This document shows, piece by piece, positions 2,218 through 60,578 of a DNA stretch of 64,000 bases. The translations under genes were made by a program, and so were the position numbers. Below the pieces are notes generated by a model. It saw only the letters and a program-made list of their open reading frames with translations, had not been told where the DNA came from and did no database searches. The stretch's first letter is position 1. Each line of letters opens with the position of its first letter. Source of the stretch: Kitasatospora sp. NBC_01266 (GTDB taxonomy: Bacteria; Actinomycetota; Actinomycetes; Streptomycetales; Streptomycetaceae); assembly GCF_036242395.1 (NCBI RefSeq), contig NZ_CP108458.1, positions 8,308,001-8,372,000 of the forward strand, given 5' to 3'.

Positions 2218-2266
2218 CTGTGCCGCGAAGGAAGCTTGTTGACTGTTACCGTCGCACGCCGCGCCG

Positions 2267-2515
2267 TCAGAACAGCGTTGCCGCCGGGTCCGGTTGCCCA
2301 CCGGTGCCCGGCAGTGCGTCCTGCCAGGCGTCGGCCGTCGAGGTCGGCAGCTGCCGCATGCTCGCCTCGCACAGGATCAGCGAGCGGCGGTCCTTCTTGT
2401 GGTCGTGGACCACGCCGTAACCGGCACGCCGGGTCGGCATCAGGGCGACCGGGCGGCCGCAGCTGGGGCATTGGATCCGAGGAGCGCGCATACGGATCAG
2501 GGTGCCAGAGGCCAC
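2267..2515 (-). CDS. Small CPxCG zinc-ribbon-type protein
   Basis: This 82-residue protein has a CPSCG pair near its N-terminus and a third cysteine (LILCEAS) about 35 residues later, in the order of a small zinc-binding protein. A basic HDHKKDRR patch lies between them. The ORF starts at GTG 2515; an ATG at 2491 would give MRAPRIQCPSCG and is equally possible. It is convergent with the oxidoreductase that ends at 2217. The function is unknown; nucleic-acid binding is only a guess from the charge and cysteines. Confidence 0.6.
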   Translation of the reverse strand: MASGTLIRMRAPRIQCPSCGRPVALMPTRRAGYGVVHDHKKDRRSLILCEASMRQLPTSTADAWQDALPGTGGQPDPAATLF

Positions 2516-2852
2516 TGACAGCGCGCAGCCCGCCCGGGCGCGGAACCTGCGGCAGCCGCGCCGTGGCCAGAGGTGTGGAAGGCGTGCGACAGGCCCGCTT
2601 GAGGAGTCAGGCGCTCGCGCACGGTCTCCCGGACCCGGACCAGGGCGCGGCTGCCGTCGAGGGCTCGCGGATGGGGCGCGGGCCGGGGCCCCGTGCGGTG
2701 GGGCCGAGGCCTATCCAAACAGGGGCGCGGCCGGTGCGGCGACTGGTGCCGGGCACCACGCGGCGCGCGCCTGCCTGGGTGATCGAACAGCCGGCTCGGC
2801 CTGGTGGTCGCGGTACCTCAGCGGCCTACCGGTTCGTCAGCGGCTCAGCGGC
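2516..2852. other. Intergenic stretch without a supported gene
   Basis: This stretch separates the zinc-ribbon gene from the MFS transporter, both on the minus strand. Open frames run through it on both strands, but their translations are low-complexity Arg/Pro/Ala with no recognisable family. A short CAGCGGCT-type repeat near 2840-2860 is the only structure noticed. Confidence 0.4.
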
Positions 2853-4115
2853 TCAGCGGGTTTGGCGGATCGCCGTGCGCGGGACGGTCCGGAGCAGCAG
2901 CGGCTGACCGGCGGCCAGCAGCAGGCAGCCACCCGCCATCGCGAACCAGAGGGCGCCGCTCCCGGCGCGGGCGAGCAGCTGGGTTCCGAGTACCGGCGCC
3001 GCGACGGCCGCGATGCCCCAACTGGTGCCGTAGGCAGCCAGATAGCGGCCACTGGCGCCGGGCGGGGCGAGGTCGGCGACCACGGCGTAGGCGCGGCCGA
3101 GCAGCAGCAGCTCGCCCAGCCCCAGCGGCACCGTTGCGGCGAGCAGGCCCGCCAGGGTGTGCGCGATCGCGTAGCCGGCCAGCCCCGCCGCCAGCAGCAG
3201 GTAGCCCGCGCGCAGTGCCGCCGGGGCCGGCAGGGCGGCGAGTCGTGGCCGGCGCAGCAGCGGTTGGCCGGCCAGCACGGTCAGCGCCGAGGCGGTGTAG
3301 AGCAGCCCGGCGTCGGCGGGCGGCAGGCCGTGCCGGGCCAGCGAGAGCGGCAGGGCGACGGAGAGTTGCAGGTAGACCAGGGCGAACAGGGTGCCGGAGC
3401 CGAGCATGGCGAGCAGCGCGCGATCCCGCCAGGGGCTGATCGGCGACGCGTCGGCGGTATCCGGGCCGCCGGCCGAGGAGGGCCGGTCCGGCGGCAGCAC
3501 GGCGCGCACCACGAGGGCGCAGGCCAGGCAGCTCACCGCGTCCGCGACGAAGAGCCACCGCAGGTTCCAGCGGCCGAGCGCGGCGGCCAGCACCCCGGCC
3601 ACCAGCCCGGCCGCCGCCAGCGTGGCGTTGAGCAGGCTGTAGGCGCGCACCCGGTCCGAGGGGCCCACCGCGTCGGCGATCATCGCCTGGCTCGGCGGTT
3701 CGTACAGCTCGAAGGCCAGCCCGAGCAGCACGGCGAACCCGGCCGCACCCGCCAGGCTGCCCGCCGTCGCGAGCCCCAACTGCGCGACGGCGCAGCCGGT
3801 CAGCCCCAGCACGATGGTGCGCCGGCGCCCCAGCCGGTCCGCCAGCCGCCCGCCGGCCAGTCGGGAGGGGATGGTGGCGAGCCCGAAGGCCGCGCCGACC
3901 AGTCCGGCGGTCGCGGTGGAGGCGCGGAAGTCGGTGCTGATCAGCACGGTGAGGAAGGCGAGCGAGAAGGCCGCGAGGCGGTTCACCGCGCGGGCCGCGA
4001 TCAGCAGCCGGACGGCGCGGGGCAGCGGGGGGCACGCTGCCGCAGGATCCGGGTTCGGGCCAGTGGGTGGTTCGGCTGGAGCTGTGCCTGAGCGCATCGG
4101 AGTGCCAATCGTCAC
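2853..4115 (-). CDS. Major facilitator superfamily transporter
   Basis: This 420-residue hydrophobic protein has about twelve membrane segments, the usual MFS length. The loop after helix 2 carries the MFS motif A variant GGRLADRLGRRR at about residues 87-98. A short proline-rich cytosolic N-tail precedes the first helix. It is probably a proton-driven exporter of small molecules. It is divergent from the CGNR zinc-finger gene at 4173, so the 57 bp between them should hold both promoters; the zinc-finger protein is therefore a candidate regulator of the pump, which is an inference from arrangement only. The substrate is unknown. Confidence 0.88.
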   Translation of the reverse strand: MTIGTPMRSGTAPAEPPTGPNPDPAAACPPLPRAVRLLIAARAVNRLAAFSLAFLTVLISTDFRASTATAGLVGAAFGLATIPSRLAGGRLADRLGRRRTIVLGLTGCAVAQLGLATAGSLAGAAGFAVLLGLAFELYEPPSQAMIADAVGPSDRVRAYSLLNATLAAAGLVAGVLAAALGRWNLRWLFVADAVSCLACALVVRAVLPPDRPSSAGGPDTADASPISPWRDRALLAMLGSGTLFALVYLQLSVALPLSLARHGLPPADAGLLYTASALTVLAGQPLLRRPRLAALPAPAALRAGYLLLAAGLAGYAIAHTLAGLLAATVPLGLGELLLLGRAYAVVADLAPPGASGRYLAAYGTSWGIAAVAAPVLGTQLLARAGSGALWFAMAGGCLLLAAGQPLLLRTVPRTAIRQTR

Positions 4116-4172
4116 TGGTGAACCCTGTATCGTCAGTGACGGACGCTAGAGGGCAGAGGAGTAATTGGTCAA

Positions 4173-4757
4173 GTGATGTTCGACAGTCACCTGGTGACGC
4201 TGCTGGACGCCGCGGCCGCCCTGGTCAACGCGCTGACCGACGGCGACCGGCGCGGCAGGCCCCACGCCGCGCCGCGCGGCGCCGAGTTGGCGCCCGCGAT
4301 CGTTGCCGCCCTGCCGCCCGCCGGTACCGACCCCGCCGCCATCGGCGCGGACCAGGCCGACTACCTGGCGGCCACCGCCCGGCGGATGCGCGAGGTCTTC
4401 GAAGCGGTCGCCGTGGGCGACCTCGACGCCGCCGCCGGCACGCTGAACCCGCTGCTGCGCTCGGCCGGTGCCCGGCCGCAGCTGGACCGGGTGCCGGGCG
4501 AGCCCTGGCAACTGCACTTCCACGGCACCGACGACACCCTCGCCGTGGGTTGGAGCGCGGGCTGCGCCACGGCGCTGGCGCTGGCCATCGGCAGCGAGCT
4601 GGCCGGCCGCCTGGGCCTCTGCCAGGCCGCCCGCTGCGACCAGGTCTACGTGGACCGCTCACGCAACGCGGGCCGGCAGTTCTGCTCGACGGCCTGCCAG
4701 AACCGGGCCAAGGCAGCCGCCTTCCGGGCCCGCCGGGACAGCGCGGGAGCGGGCTGA
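4173..4757 (+). CDS. CGNR zinc finger (ABATE-type) transcriptional regulator
   Basis: This 194-residue protein has the layout of the CGNR/ABATE family: an N-terminal helical sensor region followed by a C-terminal zinc finger. The finger reads C-x4-C, then DRSRNAGRQFC and C-x-NR (about residues 150-182), where the cysteines bind zinc and the basic NRAKAAAFRARR tail should contact DNA. Start codons GTG 4173 and ATG 4176 are adjacent; a GAGGAG-like ribosome site lies at about 4156. It is divergent from the MFS gene at 4115 and may control it. Confidence 0.85.
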   Translation: MMFDSHLVTLLDAAAALVNALTDGDRRGRPHAAPRGAELAPAIVAALPPAGTDPAAIGADQADYLAATARRMREVFEAVAVGDLDAAAGTLNPLLRSAGARPQLDRVPGEPWQLHFHGTDDTLAVGWSAGCATALALAIGSELAGRLGLCQAARCDQVYVDRSRNAGRQFCSTACQNRAKAAAFRARRDSAGAG

Positions 4758-4764
4758 GCCCCGG

Positions 4765-5135
4765 TCAGCCCCGCGCGACGGTGACGATCGCCGGGCTGGC
4801 CTCCGTCAGCGGGCCGCCGCGCAGGTCGCCGAACTGCTCCTCGATCACCAGCCCGGCCTCGGCCAGCGCGATCCCCAGCGCAGCCCGGTCCAGGAACCGC
4901 AGCCTGCTGCCGCTGCGCCGGGGCGGCCGCCCACCGGGGAAGCTGGCCCTGGCGGGGGCCAACTGCTGCAGGCGGCCGGCAAGTTCGCCTCCTTCCGGCG
5001 GCACGGCAGACTCCTGGCAGCGGCTGTCGAGCAGCCGGTGCGGAGCGAGGAGGCGGCAGTCGGTTGAGGTGTCCCGCGTTCGGCCGTCCGGGTAGCGCAG
5101 CGTGCGGACCGTTTCGCCGAGCTGACGGCGGGTCA
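4765..5135 (-). pseudogene. C-terminal remnant of a class I SAM-dependent methyltransferase
   Basis: On the minus strand the 3' end reads RFLDRAALGIALAEAGLVIEEQFGD and then GGPLTEASPAIVTVARG before the stop at 4765. This closely resembles the last strands of class I methyltransferases. Upstream is a second plausible piece, MTRRQLGETVRTLRYPDGR. No SAM-binding GxGxG motif exists anywhere in the frame, and upstream the frame runs into the beta-lactamase gene on the other strand. I read this as a gene fragment whose catalytic half is gone. The upper limit 5135 is approximate. Confidence 0.5.
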
Positions 5136-5176
5136 TGCGTACCGGGTCGCCCCGTGAACCCAGGAGGCCCGCACTC

Positions 5177-6350
5177 GTGCTGTCCCGTCCGCTGCGCTCG
5201 CTCGCCCTCGTCCTGCTGGCTGCCCTCGGGCAGTCCTCCGTCGGCTGGGCCGCCGCGCCGTCACCGCTGACCGCCGACGACCTGAACCGGGGTCGCCTGA
5301 ACCGTGAGCTGGCCGAGCTGGTGCAGACGCCCGGCGGGCCGCCCGGTGCGATCGCCGTGCTGCGCGACGGCGATCGGGTCGAGGCCTTCCGGGCCGGAGT
5401 CGCCGACCTCGCGGGCCCGGCCGCCCGCCCGCCGCAGGCCGACGACCACGTGCGGCTGGCCAGCGTCTCCAAGGCGTACAGCGGCGCGGTGGCGCTGGCC
5501 CTGGTGGATCAGGGGCGGCTGAGCCTTGACGACACCATCGCCCAGCGGCTGCCCGATCTCCCGGCCGCCTGGGGTGCGGTGACGCTTCGTCAACTGCTCA
5601 ATCACACCAGCGGCTTGCCGGACTACCCCGGATCACCCGACTTCCAGGCGGTGCTCAAGGCCGACCCGCACCACATCTTCGACCCGCACTGCCTGCTCGC
5701 CTACGTCGCGGACCAGCCGCTGGCCTTCATCCCCGGCACCGAGTACCACTACGCCAACTCGGACAACGTGGCGGTCGCCCTGATGGCCGAGGCCGGCACC
5801 GGGCAGCACTACGAGGACCTGCTGCGCACGCTCGTCCTGGACCCGCTCGACCTGCACGCCACCAGCCTGCCGCGCGGCTTCCGGATCCCCGAGCCGTACC
5901 TGCACGGGTACGCCGTCGACCCGCCCGCCGGCCCGGAGGACGTGAGCACGGTGTACGGCATGTCCGGCCTCTGGGCGGCCGGCGGCATGATCTCCACCCC
6001 GCGTGAGCTGAGTGCCTTCACCGCCGCCTACGCGGGCGGTCGACTGATCTCCCCGGCCACCCGCGCGCAGCAGCTGACCTTCGTCCCCGGCCGCTCCCAG
6101 CCCTCCGGCCCCGGCCGCAACGAGGCGGGGCCTGGCGATCTTCCGCTACACCACCCGGTGCGGCGTCGTCTATGGCCACACGGGCAACTTCCTCGGCTAC
6201 ACCCTGCTCACCGCCGGCACCCCCGACGGCCGTCGCAGCCTCGCCTTCGTCGTCTCCGAGCAGCTCAACGACGCCGGGCAACCGGAGCTGGTGGCCAGGC
6301 TCCGCGCGGTCCAGGAGGACTTCGTCTGCCACCTGTTGGGTACTGCTTGA
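5177..6350 (+). pseudogene. Secreted serine hydrolase, beta-lactamase/DD-peptidase family, frameshifted near the 3' end
   Basis: GTG 5177 follows an AGGAGG site at 5162-5167 and begins a signal peptide ending near GWAAAP. The class C beta-lactamase fold motifs are present: SVSK (catalytic Ser/Lys), YAN, and HTG. The HTG motif is only reached by changing frame: the first frame runs through FVPGRSQPSGPGRNEAG, and at the GGGG run 6127-6130 the reading must move by one base to give LAIFRYTTRCGVVYGHTGN and the stop at 6348-6350. A one-base insertion explains it. Either the gene is recently broken or the base is an assembly error. Likely role is cell-wall peptide or ester hydrolysis outside the cell. 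Confidence 0.8.
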
Positions 6351-6452
6351 GCCGGGCCGCCAACCCGCAGAGATCGTGACGTAGCATCAAGCCGGTTTCA
6401 GCAGACGGTTATTGACGGGCGTCCGCCGGATCGGCGGCGTACCATCGCACCC

Positions 6453-7016
6453 GTGATCTCAAACGCCCCCACTGCACTGTCACTTCGGCCCGAGACCCCC
6501 GAGGATGAGGACGCGGTGCGCGAGTTGCACGCGCTGGCCTTCGGTGACAGCGAGCGGGTGCCGGGGCTGGTGGACGCGCTGCGGGCCGCCGAGGCCGCGC
6601 TGCCCGCGCTCTCCTTCGTCGCCACCCTGGAGGGCCGGGTGGTCGGTCATGTGCTGCTGAGCGCCTGTCGGTTGGACGCGCCGGAGCGGCTGGTCGACGT
6701 CTACGCGCTGTCCCCGCTGGGTGTGCTGCCGGAGTACCAGGGCCACGGCATCGGTGCCAGGCTGATCGAGCACGCGCTCGCGGCGGCCGACCAGCAGGGC
6801 GTGCCACTGGTCTTCTTGGAGGGCTCACCGCGCTACTACCGCGAGCGGGGCTTCGACGCGGCGGAGGAGTTGGGCTTCCGTCCGCCGACGCTGCGCTATC
6901 CGCCGGGCGCCTTCCAGGTGGCCAGGCTGTCGACCTACCAGGGCTGGATGACCGGGACCTTCGTCTACGCGGAGCCCTTCTGGGCACTGGACTGCGTCGG
7001 CCTGCGGGGCCTGTGA
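6453..7016 (+). CDS. GNAT family N-acetyltransferase
   Basis: This 187-residue protein carries the acetyl-CoA-binding motif A of GNAT enzymes, with LGVLPEYQGHGIGARLIEHAL at about residues 89-109, matching the R/Q-x-x-G-x-G/A loop. The RGFDAAEELGFRPP segment resembles the YhbS-like subgroup, where a loop after the acetyl-CoA site shapes the acceptor pocket. Translation starts at GTG 6453. It stands alone between the beta-lactamase gene and the nucleotidyltransferase gene, on the same strand as both. The acceptor is unknown. Confidence 0.88.
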   Translation: MISNAPTALSLRPETPEDEDAVRELHALAFGDSERVPGLVDALRAAEAALPALSFVATLEGRVVGHVLLSACRLDAPERLVDVYALSPLGVLPEYQGHGIGARLIEHALAAADQQGVPLVFLEGSPRYYRERGFDAAEELGFRPPTLRYPPGAFQVARLSTYQGWMTGTFVYAEPFWALDCVGLRGL

Positions 7017-7090
7017 CCGACGGTGCTGGGTGGCCGGGCGCGGGAAAAAACCGGTCGCTGTTGATCCAGGTTTCTGGAACCCTGACCAGC

Positions 7091-7837
7091 ATGAATCCGG
7101 ACCCCGTCGACCAGGCTCGACGTCTCGCCCGTGACCGCTTCCCCGATGCGCTCGCCGTGCTCCTCGCCGGGTCGACGGCCGCGGGGCGAGCCACCGCCGG
7201 CAGTGATCTGGACATCGCGGTGCTCGTCGCGGACGGCGGGGAGACGGGGCGCGAGACCATCCGGTTCGAGGGTCGGGTCGTCGAACTCTTCATTCACACC
7301 CGGGCCGGCCTCGCGGAGCTCTTCGCGGCGGACGCCGCCAGCCGCCGTGCGGTGCTGCAGAGCATGTATGCCAGCGGCCTTGTCCTGGTCGACACGGACG
7401 GTGCGGCCGGGTGCGCCCGCGCGCTGGCCGAGGCGGACCTGCGCCAAGGGCCGCCGGCGCTGGAACCGCAGGCGGTCGAGACGAAGCGGTACGGGCTGAC
7501 GGACGCACTGGACGACCTCGCCGACACGGGCGACCGGATCGAGCGCCTCGCGGTGGCCGGGTTCGTGCTGAACGCCGCCGCCGAGTTGCTCTGCGACCAC
7601 CACCGCGCGTGGACCGGCAGCGGGAAGTGGCTGCCGCGGCGCCTGCTGGCAGCGGACGCGGTGCGTGGGGCCGCGCTGCTCGAAGGGCACCTGGGGCTCT
7701 GCGAGTCGGGGGATCCGGCGCTCCTGATCGACGCGACGGCGGCGATCCTCGACCTCGTCGGCGGGCCGCTTCGCGAGGGCTACCGCAGGACCTGGCGCGG
7801 TGTCATCGAATCGCTCGCCGGCACTGCCGGACGTTGA
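7091..7837 (+). CDS. Nucleotidyltransferase-fold protein
   Basis: The first 60 residues carry the nucleotidyltransferase signature LAGSTAAGRATAGSDLDIAVLV, that is GS, then the paired-aspartate DLD that binds metal and nucleotide. The rest is helical and lacks a recognised second domain. ATG 7091 is preferred over an upstream GTG at 7013, since it places the signature at the usual distance from the N-terminus. Relatives include antibiotic-modifying enzymes and MNT-type toxin-antitoxin partners, but no HEPN gene is adjacent. Function is therefore left open. Confidence 0.82.
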   Translation: MNPDPVDQARRLARDRFPDALAVLLAGSTAAGRATAGSDLDIAVLVADGGETGRETIRFEGRVVELFIHTRAGLAELFAADAASRRAVLQSMYASGLVLVDTDGAAGCARALAEADLRQGPPALEPQAVETKRYGLTDALDDLADTGDRIERLAVAGFVLNAAAELLCDHHRAWTGSGKWLPRRLLAADAVRGAALLEGHLGLCESGDPALLIDATAAILDLVGGPLREGYRRTWRGVIESLAGTAGR

Positions 7838-7866
7838 CGAGTCCGACCGATCGACCCGGAGGTGCC

Positions 7867-8235
7867 ATGTCCCCGCAGCTGAAGTTGACCATGATCACCC
7901 TCGACTGCGCCGACCCGTTGGCGCTGGCGGCGTTCTACCAGCAGGCCACCGGCCTGGAACCGCACCCGAAGTCGGACGCCGACTTCGCCGCTCTCGGCCG
8001 TGCGGACGGACTGTTCCTCGGTTTCCAGCGGGTGGACGACTACCGGGCGCCGCGCTGGCCCGACCAGAGCGGTCCCCAGCAGTTCCACCTCGACTTCACG
8101 GTCGAGGACCTGGCCGAGGCCGAGGCCCGGCTGCTGGAACTGGGCGCCGGCAAGCCGGAGTACCAGCCAGGGGAGGGGAAGTGGCTGGTCCTCACCGATC
8201 CGGCCGGGCACCCGTTCTGCCTGGTGCGGGGCTGA
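7867..8235 (+). CDS. VOC family (glyoxalase/bleomycin-resistance fold) protein
   Basis: This 122-residue protein has the length and pattern of a single VOC module: LTMITLDCADPLALAAFYQQATG at the start and LTDPAGHPFCLVRG at the end, with metal-ligand-type residues in the first and last beta strands. ATG 7867 follows a GGAGGT site a few bases upstream. Members bind a metal and act as isomerases, dioxygenases or drug-binding resistance proteins. The gene lies 29 bp after the nucleotidyltransferase gene, so they may share a transcript. Confidence 0.88.
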   Translation: MSPQLKLTMITLDCADPLALAAFYQQATGLEPHPKSDADFAALGRADGLFLGFQRVDDYRAPRWPDQSGPQQFHLDFTVEDLAEAEARLLELGAGKPEYQPGEGKWLVLTDPAGHPFCLVRG

Positions 8236-8308
8236 TGGCCGGCTCCCGGCTGCCGGGCCGTGCGGGAGTGCGCCACCAGCCGGCAGCCGGCGCGGGCAGG
8301 ATGTGCGG

Positions 8309-8860
8309 GTGAACACTGTGACCATCACCGACGAAGACCGCCGGTCGCTCGGACTCTGGGCCGCTGACTGCGCCGAGCGGGTGCTGCCGCTCTTCGAGGC
8401 GAAGGCTCCGTCCGACAGCCGCCCGCGCGAGGCGATCGAGGGCATCCGGGTCTTCGCCCGGGACGGGAAGCGGACCCGGCAGCTGCGCACCCTCGCCGTC
8501 GCGGCGCTCGCGGCCGCGCGCGAGGTCGGCGATCCGGCTGCCACCGCCGCCGCCCGGGCCGCCGGCTACGCGGCGGCGACCCCCTTCATCCACCCGCTGG
8601 CCACCCCGCACCAGGCGAAGCACGCCCTGGGGCCGGCCATGTACGTGGCACTCGCTCGCGAACTCGCGGCGGGCGACGACACCGGCGTCGACGCTGAGGC
8701 CGACGCCGACGCCGACGTCGGCGACGCGGAGATCCGCTGGGCGATCGAGCACGCCCCGCCGGCGGTTCGCGGGATCCTGCGGCAGCTGCCGGTGTTCAGC
8801 CCTGGCCGCAGCCGCCTGGACGGGTTCCGCCACCAGCTCGACGCAGCCCTGCGCCGCTGA
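8309..8860 (+). CDS. Imm5-like putative immunity protein
   Basis: This 183-residue alpha-helical protein begins with TDEDRRSLGLWAADCAERVLPLFE and has the AAREVGDPAATAAARAAGYAAATPFI region typical of proteins annotated as putative immunity (Imm5-like). Such proteins protect against polymorphic or colicin-like toxins, often carried without the toxin. No toxin or secretion gene is adjacent. An acidic DAEADADADVGDAE stretch near residues 131-145 is unusual. GTG 8309 was chosen because the family-like sequence starts right there; the ribosome site is weak. Confidence 0.72.
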   Translation: MNTVTITDEDRRSLGLWAADCAERVLPLFEAKAPSDSRPREAIEGIRVFARDGKRTRQLRTLAVAALAAAREVGDPAATAAARAAGYAAATPFIHPLATPHQAKHALGPAMYVALARELAAGDDTGVDAEADADADVGDAEIRWAIEHAPPAVRGILRQLPVFSPGRSRLDGFRHQLDAALRR

Positions 8861-8868
8861 TCACTGAG

Positions 8869-8900
8869 GCGCGCGACCGGTCGGCCGACCGGTCGCGCGC
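8869..8900. terminator. Bidirectional terminator hairpin between convergent genes
   Basis: A perfect 14-bp stem (8869-8882 with 8887-8900) with a GGCC loop lies between the stops of the immunity gene (8860, plus) and the serine hydrolase (8927, minus). It has no T-tract on either side, which is common for actinobacterial terminators. Confidence 0.75.
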
Positions 8901-8926
8901 GCTGCCACCTGGACCGGGTGGCGCGG

Positions 8927-10135
8927 TCAGCCCTCGGCCGGCAGCTCGTAGATGTGGTCCGGGGTGATGACGGAGGTGATCGCCTTGGCGATGATGGTGC
9001 TGGGCTCGAAGCCGTCGTGCAGGATGTCGGTGTTGATCAGGATCACCATCGTGGCGTCCTCCTCCGGCAGGTACATCGTGACGCTCTCGTAGCCGGGCAG
9101 CGACCCGTTGTGCCCGATCCAGCCGTGGGTGTTGAACAGGCCCAGCCCGTACCCCGCGCCGTCGAACCCGGGGACGGGGATGAACTTCTCCCGCTCCGCC
9201 TGGGTGGCCGGGGAGAGCAGGGTGCCGGTGGCGACGTCCTTGGCCCAGTGGTGCAGGTCGTGCAGGTCGGAGATCATCGCGCCGGCCGCCCAGCCCCAAC
9301 TCGGGTTCCAGTGCGTCGTGTCGGCGATCTCACCGGTCAGCGTCTGGTTGGTGTAGCCGTGCGCGTGCGGCTTCGGGAACTCGGCGCCCTGCGGGAGGAA
9401 GGTGCGGCCCAGGTGGGAGGGTCCGGTGACGTGCTGCTGGATGAAGTCGGCGAGCGGCATCCTGCCGAGCTTCTCCACCAGCAGGCCGAGCAGGATGTAG
9501 TTGGTGTTGGAGTACTGGAACTGGGTGCCCGGGGGGAAGACGTTCGGGTTGCGGAAGGCGTACCCCAACAGCTCCTGCGGCGTGAACGGCCGGGTCGGGT
9601 CGCTGAGGAAGGCCTGCACGAAGCCCGGGTCGGCGCTGTAGCTGAACAGGCCGCTGCGCATCTCGGCCATTTCACGGATGGTGATGTGGTCGCCGTCGGG
9701 GACCCCGTCGAGGTAGGCGGAGATCGGGTCGTCCAGCTTGACCAGTCCCTCGTCGACCAGCTCCAGCACGGCGGTGGCGGTGAAGGTCTTGGTCTCGCTG
9801 CCGATCCGCATGTTGAGGTAGGGCTTCATCGGTGCGTCGGTCGCGGTGTCGGCCACCCCGGTCGACCTGATGTAGCTGCCCCGGCCGGGAAACCACAGAC
9901 CGACCGTCACACCGGGGACGTTGGCCTCCTGTTGGGCCTGCGCGATCGCCTTGTCGAGGCGGGCCGTGAGTTCGGGGTCGAAGCCGTGCGGGCAGTCGTC
10001 CGCGTACGGGTCGGCGGTGGAGACGGCGGCCGCCGGTGGGGCGGCCTGGGCCTGGGGCGCGGCAAGCGCCAGCGGGGCCAGGGTGGAGAGGGCGAGGAGG
10101 GCGGTGGCGAGTCGGCGGGCGGGGGCACGGCGCAT
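8927..10135 (-). CDS. Secreted D-alanyl-D-alanine carboxypeptidase / beta-lactamase family serine hydrolase
   Basis: This 402-residue protein starts with a classical signal peptide (MRRAPARRLATALLALS, ending near AQAAP). The penicillin-binding fold motifs are intact: SETK (nucleophile Ser and Lys), YSN and HNG. It therefore should form an acyl-enzyme outside the cell, most likely trimming cell-wall peptides; a beta-lactamase or esterase role is possible. It is a second member of the fold in this window, but unlike the frameshifted one at 5177 it reads through in one frame. It ends against the immunity gene at a shared terminator. Confidence 0.9.
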   Translation of the reverse strand: MRRAPARRLATALLALSTLAPLALAAPQAQAAPPAAAVSTADPYADDCPHGFDPELTARLDKAIAQAQQEANVPGVTVGLWFPGRGSYIRSTGVADTATDAPMKPYLNMRIGSETKTFTATAVLELVDEGLVKLDDPISAYLDGVPDGDHITIREMAEMRSGLFSYSADPGFVQAFLSDPTRPFTPQELLGYAFRNPNVFPPGTQFQYSNTNYILLGLLVEKLGRMPLADFIQQHVTGPSHLGRTFLPQGAEFPKPHAHGYTNQTLTGEIADTTHWNPSWGWAAGAMISDLHDLHHWAKDVATGTLLSPATQAEREKFIPVPGFDGAGYGLGLFNTHGWIGHNGSLPGYESVTMYLPEEDATMVILINTDILHDGFEPSTIIAKAITSVITPDHIYELPAEG

Positions 10136-10290
10136 GGCAGGACGTCTCTTCCGGGGTGAGGGGACCTTGCTTCAGGCAAGGTCACCACCTGCCCCGGCTG
10201 CGGATCCCGCGTCCTGGCGCGCCACTCGGCGAGTCCACCCGGACGGGCCTGCTGCCGCAGGCCTCGCCGACGGGCCACCGACACGCCGCT

Positions 10291-10350
10291 CAGTGCCCGA
10301 GCACGCCGGTCAGTGCCCGAGCACGCCGGTCAGTGCCCGAGCACGCCCGC
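10291..10350. repeat. 20-bp tandem repeat, three copies
   Basis: Three head-to-tail 20-bp units start at 10291, 10311 and 10331, differing only in the last bases of the third. The third copy contains the final codons of the small secreted protein at 10330-10548; the first two lie beyond its stop. The repeat thus duplicates the 3' end of a gene, including its last residues. Confidence 0.85.
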
Positions 10351-10548
10351 GAAGTCGGTGCCCAGGTTGGCGAGCTTGGTGAGGTCGCCCAGGTCGGTGA
10401 TGCCGCCGACCGGGATGCTGTAGGTGTGCTGCTGCTTCGAGGGCGCCGGGTACGCCGGGTCGCCGGCCGCGCATGCCGAGGCGGTACCCGCCAGAGCGGC
10501 GGCGGTGAGCAGGACGCCGGTGACGGTGAGTCGGATCGCGGTACGCAT
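10330..10548 (-). CDS. Small secreted protein, possible lipoprotein
   Basis: This 72-residue protein has a positively charged start, a hydrophobic core (LTVTGVLLTAAALAGTASAC) and a cysteine at about residue 26. That cysteine could be a lipobox (ASAC) or simply follow a Sec cleavage site. The mature part is about 46 residues with TYSIPVGGITDLGDLTKLANLG and no known fold. A strong GGAGG site lies six bases before ATG 10548. The stop lies inside the 20-bp tandem repeat. Related short exported proteins are frequent in Streptomyces; the function is unknown. Confidence 0.75.
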   Translation of the reverse strand: MRTAIRLTVTGVLLTAAALAGTASACAAGDPAYPAPSKQQHTYSIPVGGITDLGDLTKLANLGTDFAGVLGH

Positions 10549-10725
10549 CTGGTCCTCCGGGGGTGGGGTGTGGCCGTCCTGATCAACGGCCGGTGACCCG
10601 ATCGGTCACGCGAAGGCGGGCGTTTCACCAGGTCGGGGGAGTCCTCGGGATCAGGCGTGGTGATCCGCCACGGTGATCCGTTATTCGGTGGCGGGTTGCG
10701 GCGCCGAAACGGCAGGGTGGGGCGG

Positions 10726-11271
10726 ATGGACGTCGAACTTGTTGCCACCACCGCCGAGGACCGGCCCGTGCTGGCGAATCTGCTGCAGCTGTACCTGCAC
10801 GACTTCTCCGAGTTCCAGCCCATCGAGCTGACCGCGCACGGCACGTACGACTATCCCTACCTGGACCGGTTCTTCGGCGACCCGGACCGCGAGGCGTACC
10901 TGATCCGGGTCGGCGGCCGGCCGGCCGGGTTCGTGTTGGCGCGGTGCGATATCGCGGGGGACGACGGCGCCTGGAACGTCAGCGAGTTCTTCGTGGTGCG
11001 GGGGCAGCGCGGCAAGGGTGTGGCCGGGGCGGCCGCGCGGCTGCTCTTTCAGCGCCATCCGGGGATGTGGACGCTCTCCTACCTCCAGCAGAACGCGCCG
11101 GCGGCCCGGTTGTGGCCGGCGGTGGTCGCCTCGGTGGCCGAGGGGCCGGTGGCGCGGGTCGAGCAGCTGCCGCCGGCGGTGACCGAGGCCAGGTACCGGC
11201 TGCGGTTCGAGGTGGCCGCCGGTTCCTCGGCCACCGAGGCCGTGAGCGGTGGGCGAGGAGCGGCGGGATAG
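10726..11271 (+). CDS. GNAT family acetyltransferase-like protein
   Basis: This 181-residue protein shows GNAT strands: IRVGGRPAGFVLARCD, then NVSEFFVVRGQRGKGVAGAAARLLF, which holds the acetyl-CoA pyrophosphate loop RGQRGKGVA (about residues 88-96). ATG 10726 is used because it follows a GGGTGGGGCGG ribosome-site-like stretch and leaves no extra N-terminus. The C-terminal tail after about residue 160 is Ala/Gly-rich. The acceptor is unknown. Confidence 0.82.
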   Translation: MDVELVATTAEDRPVLANLLQLYLHDFSEFQPIELTAHGTYDYPYLDRFFGDPDREAYLIRVGGRPAGFVLARCDIAGDDGAWNVSEFFVVRGQRGKGVAGAAARLLFQRHPGMWTLSYLQQNAPAARLWPAVVASVAEGPVARVEQLPPAVTEARYRLRFEVAAGSSATEAVSGGRGAAG

Positions 11272-51879: not shown

Positions 51880-52785
51880 TCAGATCGCCGGGGTGAACGA
51901 CCGCTCGGCGCTGCGCACGGCTGACAGCAGCGCGCGGTACGAGGCGGCGGCGGGCCCTTCCGGCAGCAGGTCCTTCCAGGGCTTCGCCGGGCTCGCGAAG
52001 TGCAGCACCGCGGACGTCTCCTCCAACCGGACGAGGTCCTGCAAGGGCATCAGGTCCTGCGTGGTGTACCGGACCCAGGGCGTGCGGACCAGTGCCGACA
52101 GCGGAAAGGCGTTCCAGTGCGGCTCCAACCGCTTCCACCGGTCTTGTGCGGCCCAGTTGAGTGCGTCCTGGTCCCAGAGCCGGATGTGCTCCGGATGGGC
52201 CGCGATGAACTCGATCGCCCGGGCGAAGAGCCGCTCCTCGCGGCAGGCGGCCGGGTCGATCAGCAGCACGCCGGAATTGAAGTACTCCTGCTCGGGAGGG
52301 ATCCCGAGCTTGGACCAGCCGGGCAGGGCTCGCCCCCGTCCGACGACCGGGTTGAGCGGATCCCGTACGGCTCCCAGCGGCCGGCCGTCGAGTTCGGTGC
52401 CGAACAGTGCGCTGAGGTCCCCGCGGATGACGAGGTCCGCGTCGAGATACAGGACCCGCTCGCGGTCGAGGTACATCTCGGGTATGACCAGCCGCAGGTA
52501 ATTGGCATGAGCCCCGCCGAACGCGGTCGGATAGCGGATCGGCTCCAGGTGCACGGGGCGCAACCTCACTCGCAGGCCGAGGAGTTCCGCGTGCCACCGT
52601 AAACGCTCGATCGTCAGCGGTGAGAGCTCCTCGTAGAGCAGGTCGATCTGCAGCCGGTCGGTCAGTTCGGCATTCGACGCACGGAGCGAGTGCCACGCCA
52701 CGGTCAGCGGAAGGCTGTAGGACTCGTCGATGGCGAAGACGATTTGAGTCGGTTCTCCATCGTTCGAAGGCATTGGCTTGGGCAC
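51880..52785 (-). CDS. GT8-family glycosyltransferase
   Basis: This 301-residue protein shows GT8 landmarks in order: IVFAIDESYSLPLTVAWHSLRASN, NYLRLVIPEMYLDRERVLYLDADLVIRGDL with the metal-binding DAD, EYFNSGVLLIDPAAC, LWDQDALNWA and HFASPAKPWKD. GT8 enzymes are retaining and use UDP-glucose or UDP-galactose. GTG 52785 follows GGGGGAAAG at a good distance; ATG 52773 is possible. It is the first gene of the leftward operon and is directly controlled by the shared promoter region. Confidence 0.88.
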   Translation of the reverse strand: MPKPMPSNDGEPTQIVFAIDESYSLPLTVAWHSLRASNAELTDRLQIDLLYEELSPLTIERLRWHAELLGLRVRLRPVHLEPIRYPTAFGGAHANYLRLVIPEMYLDRERVLYLDADLVIRGDLSALFGTELDGRPLGAVRDPLNPVVGRGRALPGWSKLGIPPEQEYFNSGVLLIDPAACREERLFARAIEFIAAHPEHIRLWDQDALNWAAQDRWKRLEPHWNAFPLSALVRTPWVRYTTQDLMPLQDLVRLEETSAVLHFASPAKPWKDLLPEGPAAASYRALLSAVRSAERSFTPAI

Positions 52786-52922: not shown

Positions 52923-52946
52923 GTGAGCGGTCACGTGAACCTTCAC
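52923..52946. promoter_or_regulatory. Left tandem operator: two GTGA-N4-TCAC palindromes
   Basis: GTGAGCGGTCAC (52923-52934) and GTGAACCTTCAC (52935-52946) lie head to tail directly downstream of the leftward -10 box, so a bound protein would cover the transcription start. The right side carries the mirror arrangement. Confidence 0.7.
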
Positions 52947-52949
52947 GGA

Positions 52950-52978
52950 ACTATGATCCAGCCGCCAGTAGCTGTCAA
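52950..52978 (-). promoter_or_regulatory. Leftward promoter of the GT8-ACP-ligase-exporter operon
   Basis: On the minus strand TTGACA (52973-52978) and CATAGT (52950-52955) are separated by 17 bp. This is close to the sigma-70 type consensus of main sigma factors in actinobacteria. It drives the operon that starts at 52785. Confidence 0.7.
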
Positions 52979-53031
52979 TAGCCGCATGCGGAGCATGTAT
53001 AGCCCGATGCTGTCGTCGAGATCCGAACTGA

Positions 53032-53061
53032 TTGACAGTGCAGCGCGCCTCGGGTCATAGT
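53032..53061 (+). promoter_or_regulatory. Rightward promoter of the transglutaminase-like operon
   Basis: TTGACA (53032-53037) and CATAGT (53056-53061) are separated by 18 bp. The boxes are the same as in the leftward promoter. The start codon of the first gene is 231 bp downstream, leaving a long 5' leader. Confidence 0.7.
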
Positions 53062-53064
53062 GCC

Positions 53065-53088
53065 GTGAACGATCACGTGACCGTTCAC
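53065..53088. promoter_or_regulatory. Right tandem operator: two GTGA-N4-TCAC palindromes
   Basis: GTGAACGATCAC (53065-53076) and GTGACCGTTCAC (53077-53088) stand directly after the rightward -10 box. Four such units exist in total around the two promoters. The binding protein is not identified; no regulator gene is adjacent. Confidence 0.7.
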
Positions 53089-53291
53089 GTGACGATCATG
53101 CGCTCGCTCCAGCAGCCGCTCCGCCTGGCCGGCGCAGACTCCGGGATCCGCCGGAGTCGTACCGAGGCCCTTTCGCTGCGGACCGGCAACCGGGCCGCGC
53201 CGCAGTGCGCCGCGCGGCGGACCCGCTCACCACCTTGCCTCGCCGCAGGAACCGGTCGCGTTCCGAGCAAGTCACGAGAATCGAGGGAGTC

Positions 53292-54269
53292 ATGACACGG
53301 CCTCACACGGCGCGGGCTGCCCGGCTGCTCCCCGCGCCCCGTCCCGACTCGCCGGCGCGAGCAACGGGCCGGCCCGCCGGCCGGCTCGCCGAGATCGTCG
53401 CCCGGGTCCGCCATGTGCCCGACCGCTACCGCGAGTTCCGGCAGGACGGGCACCGGGCAACCCGTGAACACGGCATCATCCCTGCCCTGCTGGGGGAACT
53501 CGGCGATGTCGGGCTGCCTTCCCTGGTCCGTGACGGCGTCAGGTACTTCGACCAGATCGATCTGGCCAACGTCGCCCTGGCGTTGCGCCTGCCCAACGCG
53601 CGCACCCTGGCGATGCGCGGCTGGGCGAACTCGCTGCGCGCCACGTCCGGCGCGGCCGCCGGCTCGTTCGAGGTCGAGGTGCGGGCGCACTGTCCGCAGC
53701 CCGGACACCCCGGTGAGTGCGAGTACACGCGCAGCGAGGCCCTGCGCTCCCTCGCCGGGTACACGCCGGCCGCCGCCTCCGACACCGGGCAGCTGCGCCA
53801 CCGGGTTGCGCGGCCCATGACCGAGGGGCGGCTGCCCGACGCGCTCGCGAGCCTGTTCCGGCCGCTGCGTTTCCACCTGCTCCCGGAGCCGCTGCGCGCC
53901 GATCTCGGATTCCTGGCCGAGACCAATCTCGCCGACTGCGACCTCGCCGCCCTGTACCTGACGCGCGAGGCCGGCCGACTCGGCCTCGCGGCCCGCTACA
54001 GCTACGGGTTCTTCCTCGCCGCGCCGTACTCCATCATCCACACGTGGACGGAGGTGCTCGACGGTGGGGAATGGCACGCATTCGACCCGCACCTCCTCAA
54101 CCTCCTCGGCGACTGGTCGCTGCTCGACCCCGAGGAGTGGCCGCCGCACCGGTCCATCGGGAGCTGCACGGCGCGCGTCAGCGACCACGACGTCTGGCTG
54201 ACGACACATCACGGGGCCTGCGCTCCGCTGTCGCTCGCCACTCGCCGGGTCGAGGAGGACGCCAGATGA
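53292..54269 (+). CDS. Transglutaminase-like protein
   Basis: This 325-residue protein has the Cys-His-Asp triad of the transglutaminase fold: Cys in ETNLADCDLAALYL, His in SIIHTWTEVLDG and Asp in WHAFDPHLLNLL. ATG 53292 follows GGGAG. In andrimid biosynthesis AdmF, a transglutaminase homologue, joins carrier-bound acyl groups to amines. With a free ACP and ligase in the same cluster an amide-forming role is plausible but inferred. It starts the rightward operon and overlaps the next gene (ATGA). Confidence 0.8.
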   Translation: MTRPHTARAARLLPAPRPDSPARATGRPAGRLAEIVARVRHVPDRYREFRQDGHRATREHGIIPALLGELGDVGLPSLVRDGVRYFDQIDLANVALALRLPNARTLAMRGWANSLRATSGAAAGSFEVEVRAHCPQPGHPGECEYTRSEALRSLAGYTPAAASDTGQLRHRVARPMTEGRLPDALASLFRPLRFHLLPEPLRADLGFLAETNLADCDLAALYLTREAGRLGLAARYSYGFFLAAPYSIIHTWTEVLDGGEWHAFDPHLLNLLGDWSLLDPEEWPPHRSIGSCTARVSDHDVWLTTHHGACAPLSLATRRVEEDAR

Positions 54270-57205: not shown

Positions 57206-58855
57206 TTGCGCGTCCTAGGACTGGGCGGATCACACCACGACTTCTGCGCCGCCTTGGTGGCGGACGGTCAGGTCGTGTCGGCCATCGAGGAGGAGCGGCT
57301 CACCCGGGTGAAGATCGCTTACGGACTCGGGCCGCGCCTGCAGCAGTGCCTCGCGGCGGAGTACGTGCTGAACGCGGCGGGAGTCACCGCGGACGAGGTC
57401 GACCTCGTGATCGCCAACGACTTCGTCAATCCCGTCTACACCCTTCGACTGCGGGACCGGGTGCGGTGGATGGGGCACCACCTCGCCCACGCGGCGAGCA
57501 CCTTCTACACCTCGCCCTTCGAGCGGGCCGCCGTGCTGGTCATGGACGGCCGCGGATCGACCGTGGTCGAGCAGGGCCGGCTGCACGGTGAGACGGTGAC
57601 CTGCTACCAGGCCGGGCCCGGCGGCCTCGAGGTGCTGCGCGCGCAGCACGGCCGCGTCACCCTGACGGACCGGCGGTCCGAGGACCCTTACGAGGACTCG
57701 GTGGGCTGGATGTACGAGGCGGTGTCCAAGGCCATCGGCCTGTTCACCACCGGAGGCATGGGAGCGCCGGGCAAGACCATGGGGCTGGCCGCCTACGGGA
57801 CGCCGCGCTACGTCGCGCGACTGGGGGAGTTCTTCCGGCTCTCCGCCGGAGAGTTCCGTCAGTCCACCGCCCAGCAGATCGCCATGCGCTCCTTCATCGA
57901 CCGGGAGCTCGCCGAGGCCGGTGACGCGGTCGAGGGCCAGGCCCGGCGGGCCGACCTCGCCTACGCGGTCCAGCACCACACCGAGCGGATAGTGATCGAG
58001 TTCGCTCGCTGGCTGCACCGGCGCACCGGTCTGACCGACCTGTGCCTGGCGGGCGGGGTGGCCCTCAACAGCGTGGCGAACTACAAGCTCCTGTCGGAGA
58101 CGGGGTTCGAACGGGTACACGTGGTCCCGGCCGCGGGCGACGGCGGGACGGCGATCGGCTCGGCCCTGTACGGGTACCACGAACTGGGCGGGCACCCGTG
58201 GAAGCCGGCACCGCAACCGTTCTCCCCCTACCTCGGCCGCGCGTACGGGGCGGACCGGATCGAGGCGGCGCTTGCCGCCGAGTCCGGCCGGCTGCGCGTC
58301 CTGCGTCCGGACGACCCGTACTCCCTGGTGGCCCGCGAGCTCGCCGGTGGAGCGATCGTCGGCTGGTTCCAGGGCCGGTCGGAGGCGGGCCCGCGGGCCC
58401 TGGGGAACCGCAGCATCCTCGCGGACGCCCGGGATCCGGGGATGAAGGACCGCATCAACGCCAGGGTCAAGCACCGCGAGCCGTTCCGACCGTTCGCCCC
58501 GATCGTTCTGGAGTCCCGCCAGGCCGAGTACTTCACCACCACCGTGCCGGCCCCCTACATGCTCATGGTCCCGGACGTGCGGAAAGAGATGCGTGCGGTC
58601 ATCCCGGCCGTCACCCACGAGGACGGCTCGGCCCGGCTCCAGACGGTGCTGCGGGCGCTCAACCCCCGCCTGGACGCCCTGCTGGCCGCCTTCGACGCCC
58701 TCACCGGCGTTCCCGTGCTGCTCAACACCTCGTTCAACGACAACGAGGAGCCGATCGTCGAGACACCCGAGGACGCCGTGCGCTGCTTCCTCAAGACCCA
58801 GATCGACGTCCTGGTGCTCGGTGACCTCGTCGCCTACAAGACCGCGGTCTCGTGA
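57206..58855 (+). CDS. Carbamoyltransferase (NodU/TobZ family)
   Basis: TTG 57206 stands four bases after an AGGAGG site. The 549-residue protein opens with RVLGLGGSHHDFCAALVADGQVVSAIEEERLTRVK, has the metal-binding histidine pair in MGHHLAHAASTFYTSPF, LCLAGGVALNSVANYKL, and a C-terminal part with FRPFAPIVL. This is the Kae1-like plus YrdC-like plan of O-carbamoyltransferases, which use carbamoyl phosphate and ATP to carbamoylate a hydroxyl group, usually of a sugar or macrolide. The final product should therefore carry a carbamate. Confidence 0.9.
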   Translation: MRVLGLGGSHHDFCAALVADGQVVSAIEEERLTRVKIAYGLGPRLQQCLAAEYVLNAAGVTADEVDLVIANDFVNPVYTLRLRDRVRWMGHHLAHAASTFYTSPFERAAVLVMDGRGSTVVEQGRLHGETVTCYQAGPGGLEVLRAQHGRVTLTDRRSEDPYEDSVGWMYEAVSKAIGLFTTGGMGAPGKTMGLAAYGTPRYVARLGEFFRLSAGEFRQSTAQQIAMRSFIDRELAEAGDAVEGQARRADLAYAVQHHTERIVIEFARWLHRRTGLTDLCLAGGVALNSVANYKLLSETGFERVHVVPAAGDGGTAIGSALYGYHELGGHPWKPAPQPFSPYLGRAYGADRIEAALAAESGRLRVLRPDDPYSLVARELAGGAIVGWFQGRSEAGPRALGNRSILADARDPGMKDRINARVKHREPFRPFAPIVLESRQAEYFTTTVPAPYMLMVPDVRKEMRAVIPAVTHEDGSARLQTVLRALNPRLDALLAAFDALTGVPVLLNTSFNDNEEPIVETPEDAVRCFLKTQIDVLVLGDLVAYKTAVS

Positions 58856-59916
58856 CCGGCGAGTCGGCGGCGATCGACGCGCTGTGCGCGCTGGTCGGAC
58901 CGACGGACCGGCAGGCCGGCCGGCTCGGGGCGCTGCGGCTGCGGACCCTGGCGCGTCCGCACGGAGCGCTCGGCCGACTCGACGACCTGGTGCCCAGGAT
59001 CGCGATGATCCGCAGCGATCCCGACCCCGGGCCGCTGCCCGCGCTCGTCAGCGTGCTGGCGGCCGACCACGGGCTGGCCCGGCGCGCGGTCTCGGCACTG
59101 CCGCAGCCTGCCGGGGGGCGGGTGCTCGCCCTCGTGCAATCGGGCCGGGCGCCGCTGAACCTGATCGCCGACCGGGTGCCCGCGCGAGTCGTCAGTGCGG
59201 ACTTCGGTCTCGTCGAGCCGGTCGGCGAAGCGGAGTTCCGGATGGGAGCGGGTACCGAGGACATCTGCCTGCGTGACGCGATGACGCGTGCCGACGCCGA
59301 ACGCGCGGTGCTGAGCGGTGCCCGGTTCCTCCGGAGCCGGTTGGGGGAGGAGACGATGGTCGCCGTCGGTGAGATCGGCGTCGGGAACACGACCGCGGCC
59401 GCCGCGCTGACGGGCAGGCTGCTGGAGCTTCCGGTGGCCGCGGTGGTGGGAGCCGGGTCGGGCGTGGACCCGGCCGCAGTGGCACGCAAGCACGCGTTGG
59501 TCGAACGAGCACTGATCCGCACCGCGGGCCTTCCCGGGACGGACACCCTGGCGCAGCTCGCCGCCCTCGGCGGCTACGAGATCGCCGGGAACGTCGGAGT
59601 GATCCTCGCCGCCGCCGCGGCGCGCCGGGTGGTCGTCCTCGACGGATTCATCACCGCGGTCGCCGCCCTCATCGCGGTCCGGCTCTGTCCGCCGGTCGGC
59701 CACTACCTGGTGGCCGCCCACCGTTCGGCGGAGCCGGGCCACCGCCCGCTGCTCCAGGCGCTCGGGCTGGACCCGCTGCTGGACCTGGGCCTGCGCCTGG
59801 GCGTGGCGAGCGGTGCCGCCCTCGCCCTGGGTCTGGTCAACACCACGCTGGAACTCGCCCATCGGACGCCGCGGGCCCGTGATGTGGGTCTCGCCCTGCC
59901 TGCGGAGGACGGATGA
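58852..59916 (+). CDS. CobT-like nicotinate mononucleotide:base phosphoribosyltransferase with altered active site
   Basis: The 354-residue protein keeps the CobT landmarks: PHGALGRLDDL, AADHGLARRAVSALPQ, VGEIGVGNTTAAAAL (phosphoribosyl site), LGGYEIAGNVGVILAAA, VVLDGFITAVAAL and AAHRSAEPGHRPLLQALGLDPLLDLGLRLG. At about residue 318 it reads RLGVASG where CobT enzymes have RLGEGSG, so the catalytic glutamate (Glu317 in Salmonella CobT) is a valine. CobT enzymes move phosphoribose from nicotinate mononucleotide to a base; ArsAB relatives use phenols. Overlaps the carbamoyltransferase by GTGA. Confidence 0.88.
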   Translation: MTGESAAIDALCALVGPTDRQAGRLGALRLRTLARPHGALGRLDDLVPRIAMIRSDPDPGPLPALVSVLAADHGLARRAVSALPQPAGGRVLALVQSGRAPLNLIADRVPARVVSADFGLVEPVGEAEFRMGAGTEDICLRDAMTRADAERAVLSGARFLRSRLGEETMVAVGEIGVGNTTAAAALTGRLLELPVAAVVGAGSGVDPAAVARKHALVERALIRTAGLPGTDTLAQLAALGGYEIAGNVGVILAAAAARRVVVLDGFITAVAALIAVRLCPPVGHYLVAAHRSAEPGHRPLLQALGLDPLLDLGLRLGVASGAALALGLVNTTLELAHRTPRARDVGLALPAEDG

Positions 59917-60578
59917 ACCACGCGGCCGCCGGGCCGGCGCGACCGCGAGGAGTCGTCTTCGACCTCGACGGAACGCTCCTGGACACGTGGCGGATTCACG
60001 AACACTGCCTGCGCGAGGCCGTGCGCGACCTCAGCGGGTCGCAGGTGGGCAAGGTGCGGCTCTGGCGCGCCCAGCGGCCGACCGATCTCGCCACCCTGGG
60101 CGAGCTCGTCGGGGCCGAGCACGCCCAGGAGGCGCTGCTGGCCTACCGCGCGGCGCTCGCTCGGGAACTCACGGTCCGTCTGCCACCACCGGTCCGCGGG
60201 GTCGAAGCAGCGCTGGCGGGGCTGCGAAGCCGCGGGGTCCCGGTCGGCATCTGCACCGGACGGTCGCGTGAGGACGCGCAGACCCTGCTGACGGCCGCGC
60301 GACTCGACGTGCCGCTGATCGTCGCCCGCCAGGACGCGCCGCCCAAGCCCTCCCCGGTGGCCCTGCTGCTCGCACTCCAACACCTCTCCCTGGCGCGGCA
60401 GGACGCTCTGTTCGTCGGCGACAGCGAGTGGGACCGGTCGCAGGGGAGTGCCGCGGGCGTTCGCACCCTGATCGTCGGGCGGGCCGGCCTGCCCGCCGAA
60501 CTCGCCGCCGCGCGCTGGCCCCTCGGCACCGGCCCGGCCGCTGCCGCCGATGACCCGAGCGGAAACCCCATCCCTTAG
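59913..60578 (+). CDS. HAD-superfamily phosphatase
   Basis: This 221-residue protein has the HAD motifs VVFDLDGTLLDT (nucleophile Asp), TGRSREDA (motif II Thr), PPKPSP (motif III Lys) and VGDSEWDR (motif IV acids). It resembles phosphoglycolate/phosphosugar phosphatases. Right after a CobT-like gene it probably removes the 5'-phosphate from the ribosylated product, as the CobC phosphatase does for alpha-ribazole phosphate. This link is inferred from gene order. Confidence 0.85.
   Translation: MNHAAAGPARPRGVVFDLDGTLLDTWRIHEHCLREAVRDLSGSQVGKVRLWRAQRPTDLATLGELVGAEHAQEALLAYRAALARELTVRLPPPVRGVEAALAGLRSRGVPVGICTGRSREDAQTLLTAARLDVPLIVARQDAPPKPSPVALLLALQHLSLARQDALFVGDSEWDRSQGSAAGVRTLIVGRAGLPAELAAARWPLGTGPAAAADDPSGNPIP

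Follow-up and report, generated by a model that had tools for sequence, protein, structure and literature searches.

The window, a stretch of 64,000 nucleotides from the genome of Kitasatospora sp. NBC_01266, carries a biosynthetic gene cluster that extends over positions 42445-63795 and continues over positions 789-10911 of locus L005. Its genes code for GT8 and GT4 glycosyltransferases, nucleotide-sugar enzymes, two ABC exporters, a carbamoyltransferase, a nitrilase-type hydrolase, an F420-type LLM protein, a 2OG-oxygenase-like protein, a P450, a split transketolase, a KS-ACP PKS and two transglutaminase-like proteins. Two operons diverge from the promoters P1 and P2 (Table 1). The leftward one, behind P1, comprises the GT8 gene, an AMP ligase, a UbiC-like chorismate lyase, the ABC exporters, nucleotide-sugar genes and GT4, and the rightward one, behind P2, runs from a transglutaminase-like gene through the P450 and the transketolase halves. 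The product of the first rightward gene gives no Pfam match itself; it is 34% identical to the second transglutaminase-like copy of the cluster, which matches PF01841. The leader of P2 also holds a 65-codon upstream frame (window 53097-53295) with no clear ribosome-binding site, whose TGA overlaps the ATG of this first gene (ATGA). In addition, a CobT-like phosphoribosyltransferase (PF02277) is found beside a HAD phosphatase at 58852-60578, and the chorismate lyase (UbiC/Rv2949c-like) and the AMP ligase belong to the same cluster. As a speculation by analogy, the CobT-like enzyme and its partners could yield a phenol O-riboside, as ArsAB does.

Table 1 Coordinates of the promoters, operators and genes discussed. 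Positions above 64,000 are window-equivalent.
Feature	Window position	Strand	Other coordinates	Description
GT8-family glycosyltransferase	51880-52785	-		Leftward operon, gene 1; PF01501, 7e-39
Operator O1	52923-52946			Abutting 12-bp palindromes GTGAGCGGTCAC and GTGAACCTTCAC; begins 3 nt past P1 -10 box
GTGA-N4-TCAC units of O1	52923-52934, 52935-52946			
Promoter P1	52950-52978	-		TTGACA-N17-CATAGT; 10/12 consensus matches
Promoter P2	53032-53061	+		TTGACA-N18-CATAGT
Operator O2	53065-53088			GTGAACGATCAC and GTGACCGTTCAC, abutting; begins 3 nt past P2 -10 box
GTGA-N4-TCAC units of O2	53065-53076, 53077-53088			
Transglutaminase-like protein	53292-54269	+		Rightward operon, gene 1
lacI	65559-66620		L005 2559-3620	LacI-family gene
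Promoter P3	66773-66802		L005 3773-3802	Third TTGACA promoter
Operator O3	66811-66846		L005 3811-3846; G000:C1:8374811-8374846	Triple array

A preliminary description of this region had proposed twin divergent promoters and four palindromes, and both sequence and coordinates were confirmed. The inverted blocks that it called near-perfect match in 36 of 41 bases, so that the wording was fair, and the formula GTGA-N4-TCAC holds for the sites, the centre being more exactly NCGN (CG in three of the four units and CC in the other). The four units compare with a mean of 0.73 and a maximum of 3 in shuffled versions of the window, and an extra half-site GTGAC follows immediately 3' of O2. P1 and P2 were the sole sigma-70-like promoters detected by a consensus scan in 600 bp (0.0 expected), and apart from theirs the 64-kb window has no TTGACA hexamer on either strand. 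Assuming a start ~7 nt from the -10 box, each operator spans ~ -3 to +21 and covers the transcription start. At these predicted starts, with the arrays opening 3 nt past the -10 box of P1 and P2, a bound protein would occlude both promoters.

The tandem arrangement is restricted to this cluster. The 24-mer of two GTGA-N4-TCAC units (up to 1 mismatch) was found in the 8.57-Mb genome only at O1, O2 and a third place, the triple array O3, 2.8 kb past the right end of the window, and a looser search with GTKANCGNTMAC x2 (2 mismatches or fewer) recovered the same three places, all within 14 kb. The many random genome copies that would have spoken against the preliminary reading are therefore not there. 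Single units of the type GTGANCGNTCAC numbered 13 genome-wide against 2 for the reversed control, and 4 of the 13 fall within the arrays. At P3 a GTGA opens 3 nt past the -10 box and the full array 8 nt past it. This promoter faces an SDR-LLM-PKS-transglutaminase-like operon, and since the operon begins ~1.4 kb downstream of O3 we can only infer that P3 controls it. The ~1.4 kb between O3 and the SDR gene (L005 3847-5264) has no convincing long coding frame, with one short TTG frame, at L005 3911, after an RBS-like stretch.

On the opposite side of O3 from the third operon there is a LacI-family gene that starts ~2.6 kb past the window end. The preliminary description had stated that no regulator gene is adjacent, which is literally correct but misleading, as lacI lies ~12.5 kb to the right, at the far end of this cluster and outside the window. 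Its product matches PF00356 (8e-18, residues 16-61) and PF13377 (7e-30, residues 181-345), both above the curated cut-offs, and has the order of domains typical of the LacI/GalR family, in which a LacI-type HTH at the N-terminus precedes a sensor domain resembling periplasmic binding proteins. The recognition helix, VSRQTVSR, has Gln18 and Arg22 as in LacI, with Arg at position 17 (LacI numbering). Residues 14-344 align with residues 3-328 of LacI, after which 9 residues remain, versus ~32 in LacI. By alignment length there would be no room for the tetramerisation helix, which makes lac-style looping unlikely. A DNA loop joining O1 and O2 was considered on its own and also judged unlikely, because the regulator seems to be devoid of that helix and the distance of 142 bp between the array centres, ~13.5 turns, puts them out of phase.

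We have compared the regulator with its homologues in a public genome collection. The nearest ones found by protein search (n=26, 42-45% identity, from Actinomadura, Nonomuraea, Micromonospora, Actinoplanes and Streptomyces) all carry the tandem in the 500 bp upstream, and in its GTKANCGNTMAC x2 form the spacing is 12 bp in 26/26, with other spacings in 0-3/26 and none in dinucleotide shuffles. In another protein-based set, from 249 family genomes, the tandem (up to 3 mismatches) was found within 1.5 kb of 23 of the 29 homologues, and no array within that distance of the other 6. The reverse search, with the DNA pattern, detected exact tandems in 15/395 family genomes and 3/396 phylum genomes (our own genome counted in both) and control patterns in none. 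A LacI of the same clade was found at 1.2 kb or less from 15 of the 16 tandem places outside our own genome in the family and phylum searches. Hence in all three comparisons the operator lies close to the genes of one regulator clade, as expected for a LacI operator. The sole exception is a triple array of the GTGACCGGTAAC type from a distantly related member of the phylum (L124 9952-9987, G169:C93:36451-36486), with no LacI of the clade in the 20 kb read.

In a quick tree 41 regulators form one supported clade, many of the Streptomyces entries being near copies, with the HQ helices nested among the RQ ones. RQ helices pair with GTGA half-sites, and for HQ and TQ the half-site is mainly GTTA. 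A published recognition code for LacI proteins links amino acids 15 and 16 (AA-15, AA-16) to nucleotides 5 and 4 (NT-5, NT-4) of the operator (PMC2978694), and the pairing found here is in line with it. This is supportive but not independent proof, because the H17/T4 change arises only once in the tree. In most homologues a TTGAC precedes the array by 31-56 nt. In the HQ subclade (L016-L040 upstream of lacI; for example L115 9962-10216) a small protein of ~60-85 aa containing FSALPDAPVQPDDPRP is apparently divergent from lacI across the tandem operator.

The regulator nearest to the cluster LacI on the tree, from genome G490 (locus L112), is encoded in a divergon of very similar layout. Mirrored TTGACA promoters have 52 bp between their -35 boxes (53 bp in the window), one tandem array lies beyond each promoter with centres 147 bp apart (142 bp in the window), and the twin promoters drive lacI and the gene of a sugar-binding protein. 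A mirror-image layout is thus also found outside the natural-product cluster. The lacI genes of this clade in other genomes adjoin sugar ABC transporters, alpha-galactosidase or beta-galactosidase. Loci of this kind (G490, G541, G525, G773 and others) share with ours the regulator clade, the tandem operator and the upstream TTGAC promoter, but they sit beside sugar-binding proteins, permeases or alpha-/beta-galactosidase, whereas here three biosynthetic operons take that place. The simplest view would be that a sugar-uptake lacI/ABC-transporter switch was recruited to the biosynthetic cluster. A related cluster in the congener G049 (G049:C223 ~323000-347000; L133, L134) has many genes in common, at 40-75% identity and in a rearranged order, with no lacI match and no tandem array in the 60 kb read, which fits a later acquisition here or a loss there.

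The best explanation for the sites, for their confinement to this cluster genome-wide, for the linked lacI and for the association of tandem and regulator across the clade is, with a probability of about 0.82, that O1-O3 are the tandem operators of a cluster-situated LacI repressor that would silence three operons until released by a ligand, the module having been recruited from a sugar-uptake divergon. LacI dimers would read the GTGA-NCGN-TCAC units via a helix similar to that of the lac repressor (Arg17, Gln18, Arg22) and, placed over the start site just downstream of the -10 box, would block initiation at P1, P2 and P3, so that the three operons would be silenced together. The lacI gene is likely autoregulated through O3. 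A small molecule, probably a sugar or a glycosylated intermediate given the habits of the LacI family, would free the operators. The preliminary proposal that one regulator represses both operons at the transcription start thus survives as the best-supported reading of the sequence, in the form that one dimeric regulator acting at that point probably co-represses both.

The same LacI could instead bind the arrays and activate the cluster, or both activate and repress it, like GvmR, a documented cluster-situated LacI-family activator of guvermectin production in Streptomyces caniferus (PMC12292694). We consider this improbable, since the arrays start 3 nt past complete -35/-10 promoters, over the start site, which is the position of a repressor, and the placement is similar in the sugar-transport loci of the clade. 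No less improbable is that the main binder is a different regulator, either another LacI paralogue or a member of another palindrome-binding family such as TetR. The genome does contain fifteen LacI-family matches (the next best 35% identical) and one paralogue has an HQ helix, but not one of the ten paralogues whose helices were read has RQ, and the tandem has no copies in the genome outside this cluster, lies beside the linked lacI and tracks the LacI clade across genomes. Chance repeats devoid of regulatory function can be practically dismissed; a chance origin was rejected by the enrichment over shuffles, the limitation of the tandem to a single cluster of the genome and the conservation across genomes.

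How units spaced at 12 bp are occupied is a separate matter within the repressor model. The contacts of a canonical LacI dimer reach ~7 bp to either side of the centre (PMC4052901), and two dimers 12 bp apart should therefore collide. The same survey counted 110 operons preceded by LacI sites that overlap at ~13 bp, which it regarded as difficult to square with the structures known, and gave as operator rule of the family an even palindrome with a central CG (PMC4052901), which holds for three of the four window units and for 3/3 units of O3. The tandem units might then offer one dimer a choice of registers, or one dimer might be centred on the TCAC-GTGA junction, which is itself a CG-centred palindrome. 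In spite of the steric argument (PMC4052901) that disfavours two canonical dimers, we find this doubtful: the half-site GTGANC is in the LacI register with CG central in each unit, and units are kept as pairs or triples in all 26 nearest homologues, which points to a need for more than one. We give somewhat less than even odds to a non-canonical mode of this clade, in which two or three dimers would sit side by side on 12-bp units, possibly in a cooperative way, the array having been transplanted from a sugar-uptake divergon as one cluster switch.

The symmetric lac operator has GTGAGCGCTCAC as its core, and GTGA-NCGN-TCAC is this same core. The system resembles lac/LacI of E. coli in the GTGA-NC half-site with a CG centre, the helix with Gln18 and Arg22 and the operator over the transcription start. 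It differs in having Arg17 in place of Tyr17, units arranged head-to-tail at 12 bp, no apparent tetramerisation helix and a biosynthetic cluster as target. Overlapping ~13-bp sites of the LacI family, such as those of GntR at gntKU, are also palindromes too close for two canonical dimers (PMC4052901), but in the clade described here the spacing is strictly 12 bp (26/26), with triples in some cases and a mainly actinobacterial distribution. With GvmR, GvmR2 and ScnR1 of guvermectin and AcrC of acarbose our regulator would share the control of a cluster by the LacI family, the divergent promoters and the autoregulation. However, GvmR is an activator and its operator is RTCATWCGYATGAY rather than the GTGANCGNTCAC found here, so that our regulator is not of the GvmR type, AcrC has CTTGCWG repeats as operator, and in both the sites are separated and not abutting. 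In the open-licence literature, searches with the sequences of the exact units, and others on tandem LacI sites in Streptomyces, retrieved nothing on this operator. A regulator of this family, such an operator core and repression of this kind are all known already; we found no description in that literature of abutting arrays of strict 12-bp spacing, of their conservation throughout a clade or of their deployment in a natural-product cluster.

A specific candidate regulator can now be named for the biosynthetic cluster, which makes the deletion of lacI a direct route to turning the cluster on. Furthermore, the clade offers a large natural set of strictly spaced, abutting 12-bp LacI sites, by which the question of overlapping operators (PMC4052901) becomes directly testable. 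Finally, the locus is a likely case of the reuse of sugar-catabolism regulation for secondary metabolism.
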